Of a stretch of DNA of 33,784 nt, positions 8,127-12,992 are shown in pieces. The position numbers were made by a program, and so were the translations under genes. The number at the start of each line of letters is the position of its first letter. Within the stretch, counting starts at the first letter, position 1. The stretch covers positions 10,792 to 44,575 of the forward strand of contig JBDOLX010000064.1 in assembly GCA_039832905.1 (NCBI GenBank), given 5' to 3'. The DNA comes from Desulfurobacteriaceae bacterium (GTDB lineage Bacteria > Aquificota > Aquificia > Desulfurobacteriales > Desulfurobacteriaceae). The notes beneath the pieces were generated by a model, which was not told where the DNA came from, did no database searches, and saw nothing but the letters and a program-made list of their open reading frames with translations.

Positions 8127-8830
8127 TTCTTGCTTTTTTTATAAATTTTTGGCTTGTAATTCCTTCTTATGGAGAAACGGTCAACGATTTTCTTTCTCGT
8201 TTAGGAGAACTAGATATAACTCTAAAAATTCTTTTTCTTATTACTTTCCTCAGCTTAGCACCAGCTCTTCTAATAACAATTACCTCTTTTACCCGTATAG
8301 TAATAATCTTATCTTTGTTAAGGCATGCTCTTGGAACGCCCCAGACACCTCCAAATCAAGTAATCATTGCTTTATCTTTGTTTCTTACGCTCTTTACTAT
8401 GGCTCCTACTTTCAAAAAAATAGATGATGTTGCTTTAAAACCTTACCTTAACGGGGAAATTACAGATGTTGAAGCCATAAGAAGGGCAGGAGCTCCCTTA
8501 AAAGAATTCATGCTTCGCAATACAAGAAAAGAAGACTTAAAACTTTTCCTTGATATAAGGAACGAAAAGCCGAGAGATCCTATGGAAGTTTCTATGATTA
8601 CCCTAATTCCAGCGTTTATGGTTAGTGAGATAAGAACTGCAATGGAAGTGGTTTTTGTCATTTTTTTACCTTTTATAGTGATAGATCTTCTGGTGGCAAG
8701 TATTCTAATGTCTATGGGTATGATGATGATTCCGCCTATGATGTTATCTTTACCTTTTAAGCTTATTCTATTTGTTCTCTCAAATGGTTGGGAACTCTTA
8801 ATAAAATCCATAATATTGAGTTACAGATGA
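8111..8830 (+). CDS. fliP: Flagellar export gate protein FliP
   Basis: FliP forms the core of the export gate with FliQ and FliR. The 239-residue protein has an N-terminal cleavable-type signal (residues 1-21, ending PSYGE), then four hydrophobic segments. The family signature is seen: SFTRIVIILSLLRHALGTPQTPPNQ (about 58-82), the APLKEFMLRNTRKEDL stretch, and the MSMGMMMIPPMMLSLPFKL segment. ATG 8111 directly follows AAGGA, so ribosome delivery is probably by coupling from fliO. The stop overlaps the fliQ start. Confidence 0.97.
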   Translation: MGRRIILAFFINFWLVIPSYGETVNDFLSRLGELDITLKILFLITFLSLAPALLITITSFTRIVIILSLLRHALGTPQTPPNQVIIALSLFLTLFTMAPTFKKIDDVALKPYLNGEITDVEAIRRAGAPLKEFMLRNTRKEDLKLFLDIRNEKPRDPMEVSMITLIPAFMVSEIRTAMEVVFVIFLPFIVIDLLVASILMSMGMMMIPPMMLSLPFKLILFVLSNGWELLIKSIILSYR

Positions 8831-12887: not shown

Positions 12888-12918
12888 TTGACAAATTCTT
12901 AATGAGAATTATTATTAT
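12888..12918 (+). promoter_or_regulatory. Consensus -35 promoter overlapped by a Fur-box-like operator
   Basis: TTGACA at 12888-12893 is a perfect -35. TATTAT at 12913-12918 (spacing 19) or TTATTA at 12912 (spacing 18) can be the -10. The 19 bases 12898-12916, CTTAATGAGAATTATTATT, match the E. coli Fur box GATAATGATAATCATTATC at 14 of 19 positions. A perfect AATTCT-5-AGAATT inverted repeat spans 12894-12910. The operator would cover the spacer and -10, the classic position for repression. PerR or Zur of the same family could bind instead. Confidence 0.62.
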
Positions 12919-12927
12919 TAATAGACA

Positions 12928-12952
12928 CCCCCTATCCCCCTCCCTCCTCCCC
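12928..12952 (-). other. Canonical G-quadruplex motif
   Basis: Read on the minus strand, four G-runs of 4, 3, 5 and 5 are separated by loops of 4 (AGGA), 1 (A) and 3 (ATA) bases, which satisfies the usual G3+N1-7 rule. It is the template strand of the candidate small RNA, so G-quadruplex formation could compete with or be promoted by that transcription. In such an AT-rich genome this is conspicuous. Confidence 0.6.
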
Positions 12953-12962
12953 ACTAGAGTAA

Positions 12963-12992
12963 AGGGGCGCCTCAGGGTGCCCTTCTTTTTTT
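12963..12992 (+). terminator. Rho-independent terminator before mnmA
   Basis: A 9-bp stem including two G-U pairs (AGGGGCGCC at 12963-12971 with GGTGCCCTT at 12976-12984), loop TCAG, then C and seven T (12986-12992). No plus-strand gene lies upstream nearer than flhB (2 kb away), so the terminator must serve a short transcript starting in this intergenic region. Confidence 0.8.

Follow-up and report, generated by a model that had tools for sequence, protein, structure and literature searches.

Does the C-rich stretch that lies between a TTGACA box and a T-tailed hairpin in the 33,784-nt piece of Desulfurobacteriaceae DNA analysed here (the window) belong to a small RNA gene, and, if so, what does the RNA act on and what controls it? 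A sequence-only reading had described a TTGACA promoter, a hairpin followed by seven T, and the anti-Shine-Dalgarno (anti-SD) motif CCCTCCTCCCC at 12942-12952, and all of these coordinates were exact when we rechecked them. The features of the locus are as follows.

12888-12893, plus strand: -35 box TTGACA, which also precedes the core in the family copies of the alignment
12903-12917, plus strand: Fur-box-like operator TGAGAATTATTATTA, which overlaps the -10 box and agrees with TGATAATNATTATCA at 12 of its 14 fixed positions
12910-12915, plus strand: -10 box TATTAT, kept in the Desulfurobacteriaceae copies
12923-12991, plus strand: predicted small RNA (covariance model match of 84 bits, E 3.3e-27)
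12928-12953, plus strand: C-rich core CCCCCTATCCCCCTCCCTCCTCCCCA, predicted to be unpaired and complementary to Shine-Dalgarno (SD) sites
12963-12992, plus strand: intrinsic terminator, with a stem at 12963-12984 and then seven T at 12986-12992

A conserved small RNA gene

The TTGACA and TATTAT boxes are separated by a 16-nt spacer and together match the promoter consensus at 11 of 12 positions, which makes this the top site within 11-15 kb. Shuffled sequence contained 10.0 +/- 3.0 promoter-like sites, compared with 12 in the real stretch, so the promoter score carries little weight by itself. The start of the RNA is predicted at about 12922-12925 from the position of the -10 box, and its end falls within the T-run. 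The hairpin of the window is by itself ordinary (fold z -0.62), so the case for the element rests on comparison with relatives.

We therefore searched with a 121-base query, which gave matches in all but one of the 21 other family genomes (20 of 21; E 2e-15 to 5e-27); the element is thus kept in 21 of 22 Desulfurobacteriaceae genomes, covering seven genera. The query found no match in G010, whose assembly is 83% complete and in 300 contigs, and one copy (L018) is incomplete, ending at a contig edge. The 24-nt core CCCCTATCCCCCTCCCTCCTCCCC (12929-12952) is identical in 21/21 copies, while the linker, stem and flanks vary. In the predicted folds the core has an unpaired fraction of 0.97; it would thus be a single-stranded C-rich segment complementary to SD sites, as in the C-rich anti-SD sRNAs. 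On a structure-fitted alignment, 97.7% of the stem cells of the terminator were paired over 19 distinct sequences, with one pair altered on both sides. The covariation score of this stem was equalled by 2 of 500 shuffled-letter controls and also by one slid register (+3), so that the statistical weight lies in the paired percentage. Among paralogues and families the stem sequences differ and the pairing is retained. It is therefore conservation, not the hairpin alone, that raises the feature above chance. The sequence-only reading had made its proposal depend on promoter, C-runs and terminator being conserved in close relatives, and all three are.

A coding RNA was rejected, as no ORF within the 69 nt is conserved across the family copies, and so was a known Rfam family: among 4227 models at the gathering threshold none matched the window, and the relatives' loci gave only tRNA. 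We are nearly certain that 12923-12991 is a real, free-standing small-RNA gene. Judged from its sequence features, its product is probably a conserved anti-SD sRNA repressed by Fur.

A Fur-box-like operator at the promoter

The operator, which was missing from the sequence-only reading, lies across the -10 box in almost every family copy. It reaches at least 11 of 14 positions in 14 of 18 copies, compared with 1.8% of shuffled upstream regions; scores against TGATAATNATTATCA range from 9 to 12 of 14, none being perfect, and in one genome (L005/L259) the operator is duplicated in tandem. Its placement would put a Fur operator at the sRNA promoter, as in the Fur-repressed iron-sparing sRNAs RyhB, PrrF, FsrA, IsrR and IsaR1. 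Almost all genomes of the family encode two Fur-family proteins, and Pfam recognised both of those in the genome that the window comes from; Hfq is encoded in the genomes as well. In addition, the stretch of the query that holds the operator matched further Fur-box-like sites in the family; these precede a sufC/sufB-like operon, a desulfoferrodoxin gene and a glutamate synthase gene, which fits an iron-related regulon. Taken together, these sequences make Fur control of the sRNA promoter quite likely, although the operator could instead belong to the other Fur-family member.

Similar C-rich elements across Aquificota

We searched 136 Aquificota genomes with a covariance model made from 20 copies, which gave matches at E <= 0.1 in 120 of them, many of the weak ones being terminators only. 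The exact pattern CCCCCTCCCTCC-N18..48-CTTTY was found in 96 of the 136 genomes and 26 of 30 genera, with about 150 matches listed, compared with a single match to the reversed pattern in the same genome set. Some of the pattern matches do not resemble RNA genes (e.g. G000:C33, G009:C2:933849 and two matches in f5). The pattern was absent from both f2 genomes and occurred in only 2 of 7 genomes of f5. The CCCCCTCCCTCC core followed by an intrinsic terminator is what unites this set, to which Aae-65 and its relatives belong; since the core is of low complexity, common descent of the Aquificota forms is inseparable from convergence.

The loci that we read fall into several forms. Desulfurobacteriaceae have two, the window type with its Fur box and a second one; Aquificaceae have one and Hydrogenothermaceae two, of which one has a palindrome, ATGATNNNNATCAT, about 60 bases upstream. 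The second Desulfurobacteriaceae form consists of GTCTTCATAATCCCCCCTTTTCCCCCTCCCTCCCC..GGAGAAAG and a terminator, and lies in the window's genome at G000:C93:51740-51809 on the minus strand (L091). It stands directly behind tRNA-Glu(UUC) in 15/15 loci scanned (L091, L092-L105), the two being only a few bases apart in G010, and looks like a tRNA 3'-trailer RNA; a Fur box was not found in the loci read.

One member of the set is known to be transcribed, because the homologue in Aquifex aeolicus coincides with an RNA detected earlier. The covariance model matched what is very likely the genome of this bacterium (G041) at 989751-989816 on the plus strand (E 1.9e-8), and the gene downstream encodes a Mem_trans permease (Pfam). 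Lechner et al. (2014; PMC4227106) listed ncRNA candidate 68 of A. aeolicus at 989704-989840 (+) with 476/756 reads, next to aq_1392/permease, and equated it with Aae-65 of an earlier RNomics study. As coordinate, strand and neighbour all agree, our match is very likely n68/Aae-65, a probable homologue of the window sRNA. The two share CCCCCTCCCTCC and a terminator, whereas the leader and terminator differ and no Fur box was found in the family type of Aae-65. The main text of PMC4227106 mentions neither C-richness nor iron for candidate 68 and gives it no function; the present analysis offers a function-level hypothesis for this Aquifex RNA. The finding is accordingly broader than the sequence-only reading, extending to a phylum-wide set, a tRNA-Glu-linked paralogue and an A. 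aeolicus member already on record.

Outside the phylum, a scan of the genome collection gave five matches, and none of the four inspected had a promoter-core-terminator unit. In Fibrobacter succinogenes/Fibrobacterales (L080, L088), a C-rich stretch, CCCCCTCCCTCCCCTCCTCC, apparently falls within the loop of a long hairpin that resembles a terminator and is possibly a C-rich RNA of an unrelated phylum.

Predicted pairing with Shine-Dalgarno sites and candidate targets

The sequence-only reading had named five sites in the window to which the C-rich stretch is complementary (flgD, 9 nt; atpH, 8; flgC, 7; atpD, 7; a cytochrome gene, 6). All five complementarities were exact; flgD, atpH, flgC and atpD mostly do not encode iron proteins. 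We then compared the core with the SD regions of 278 predicted genes from 17 loci, using 200 shuffled cores and the region from -70 to -42 as controls. The core matched 79 SD regions over at least 7 nt, compared with a shuffle mean of 36 +/- 13, a level reached by 1 of the 200 shuffled cores being as high as 79, and the control region gave five such matches. The core is therefore an anti-SD sequence beyond its composition; because shuffled cores often lose CCTCC, the test mainly shows that it mimics an anti-SD. Perfect 12-nt matches at SD sites were rare and not enriched over controls, 9-nt matches did not exceed the reversed-pattern control, and the base after GGAGG (A 38, G 20, T 10, C 8) stayed near the genome-wide order with no clear signal.

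Among individual genes, usp (mean 8.8 nt; at least 8 nt in 17 of 18 orthologues) and likewise nuoK stand out. Both surfaced in a match search, so their high scores are partly selected, and their sites partly encode the ...RREE end of the upstream protein, so that coding constraint explains part of the match. The pairing of atpH is conserved (at least 7 nt in 13/13 orthologues) yet equally explained by SD selection. None of these best conserved matches is an obvious iron target, and constraint on the SD or on coding confounds them. Aconitase (mean 6.5 nt, mostly 6-7) and leuC (mean 5, mostly 5), chosen beforehand as classical iron-sparing candidates, showed no pairing beyond that of an ordinary SD.

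At the usp start of the window's own genome (L356, G000:C6) the ribosome site, AGATAGGGGGATACT, is not of the GGAGG type of the family, and the site there (GATAGGGGG) has a 9-nt match to another part of the core. In five species of genus g6 (L031, L032, L033, L043, L044), a 13-nt sequence, GGGGGATAGGGGG, that complements the 5' core without mismatch (over 20 nt in L031) lies upstream of a gene for an unknown 165-aa membrane-like protein behind a prefoldin gene; the intergenic region around the site is also conserved, which leaves it as a lead only. One-mismatch GGGGGATAGGGGG sites were mostly inside genes and chance-like, and were rejected as long seed-target matches.

Proposed mechanism and alternatives

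From these features, we propose the following mechanism. When iron is plentiful, Fur would occupy the box over the -10 hexamer and keep the promoter off. Under iron shortage, an RNA of about 68 nt would be made, ending at its own terminator, and its single-stranded 5' half would pair through CCCCCUAUCCCCCUCCCUCCUCCCC with purine-rich SD sites, blocking ribosome binding on a set of mRNAs as a trans-acting sRNA. As a whole, this Fur-gated, trans-acting anti-SD mechanism has in our view a somewhat better than even chance of being correct; Fur binding, the iron response, the direction of regulation, the target set and any Hfq role are what we infer. The pairing of the core with SD sites is likely in its own right, and iron sparing as the function is put forward more tentatively, at somewhat below even chances. 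If the mechanism is true, a thermophilic phylum that branches deeply has evolved, or retained, C-rich sRNAs that spare iron or block SD sites, here with a 24-nt seed of exceptional invariance.

A broader possibility is that the RNA is a general anti-SD brake, which would mimic the 3' end of 16S rRNA and lower initiation on many mRNAs with strong SDs simultaneously instead of saving iron via a fixed list of targets, iron and the tRNA-Glu-linked paralogue each being just one of its inputs. The core does fit SD regions in general, its best conserved matches belong to respiratory, ATP synthase and stress genes (nuoK, atpH, usp), and the second C-rich RNA carries the same core behind tRNA-Glu, without a Fur box. 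However, the invariance of the non-SD part CCCCCTAT exceeds what a plain anti-SD needs, and the conserved matches are confounded by coding in the upstream gene (e.g. ...RREE*) and by SD selection. We regard a general brake as unlikely, if deserving of attention. About as speculative is a two-channel anti-SD system in Aquificota, in which paralogous C-rich RNAs with one 12-nt core would act on the same ribosome sites. In one channel (the window type, perhaps together with one of the Hydrogenothermaceae types) iron shortage would release the RNA by way of Fur; in the other the RNA would derive from the 3' trailer of the tRNA-Glu transcript. Were this so, initiation in a lineage among the deepest-branching of bacteria would respond both to iron state and to tRNA/translation state. 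The two paralogues, which would share a seed yet differ in their input (a Fur promoter in one, a tRNA-Glu trailer in the other), lend themselves to a natural comparison.

The conserved segment might instead act as DNA. The minus (template) strand of 12928-12952, GGGGAGGAGGGAGGGGGATAGGGGG, matches a G-quadruplex pattern with four G-runs of at least 3, and the paralogues are similarly rich in G-runs; the C-rich transcript would then be incidental, much as a G4-linked transcript is reportedly found at pilE of Neisseria. A quadruplex has no need of fixed loop letters, yet in 21/21 copies these (TAT and the single T positions) vary no more than the runs do, and in full-length copies a promoter and a terminator bound the element. 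This explanation seems very improbable to us. We give equally little credence to a protein-binding C-rich RNA that would serve as a sponge for Hfq or another RNA-binding protein. The extreme invariance of the single-stranded segment and the presence in each genome of several proteins with an Hfq domain, two of them long, would suit a sponge, but we know of no C-rich-binding partner in these bacteria, and the anti-SD fit of the core would be left unexplained. The two long proteins, of 179 and 164 aa, are encoded side by side at L256:7586-8125 and 8141-8635 (G000:C23), each ending in an Hfq domain and having an additional stretch at the N-terminal side; the pair lies about 7 kb from a fur gene, occurs besides an Hfq of normal size, and is present in most Desulfurobacteriaceae genomes searched.

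The gene next downstream is mnmA in most copies examined, and another gene takes its place in genus g7 and in G009, G014 and G017; in G013 and G008 a selA-like gene is next and convergent, and mobB-like, ruvX/yqgF-like and more genes also flank the element (names were read from translations, save those with a Pfam call). A leader or attenuator of mnmA, in which the C-run (CCCC) could pair with the G-run of the terminator (AAGGGG) and switch read-through, is scarcely credible and is refuted as a general explanation, because the neighbours change while core, operator and terminator stay unchanged, and the core is free in the predicted fold.

Comparison with known C-rich sRNAs

The preferred reading, a Fur-gated trans-acting anti-SD sRNA, has parallels in other bacteria. 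FsrA of Bacillus subtilis is an iron-sparing sRNA whose C-rich motif binds SD sites with the helpers FbpA/B/C (PMC9410917); as far as descriptions allow comparison, the window sRNA would likewise direct a C-rich motif to SD sites, whereas its core is one 24-nt invariant block. IsrR of Staphylococcus has Fur boxes at its promoter and single-stranded C-rich regions that cover the SD and start codon (PMC9410917), both features being predicted here, but it has three stem-loops and three short C-rich regions where the window RNA has a single long C-rich 5' arm, its only hairpin being the terminator. IsaR1 of cyanobacteria, an iron-stress sRNA, is compared by description as well; it is also of 68 nt but comes from a different phylum, with Fe-protein targets demonstrated (PMC6202907). 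By analogy, the window RNA would work like FsrA, IsrR or IsaR1; nothing in the evidence points to descent from any of the three. The idea of an analogue of FsrA/IsrR in a deep-branching thermophile, put forward in the sequence-only reading, thus gains a conserved free-standing sRNA gene, a predicted unpaired anti-SD core and a Fur-box-like operator; of the iron-rich targets that it would predict, aconitase and leuC had no extra pairing. As a lead only, CCUCCUCCC also occurs in the window sRNA at 12943-12951. The CcsR or 'cuckoo' RNAs of alphaproteobacteria are said to carry this motif in hairpin loops and to be linked to DUF1127 ORFs.
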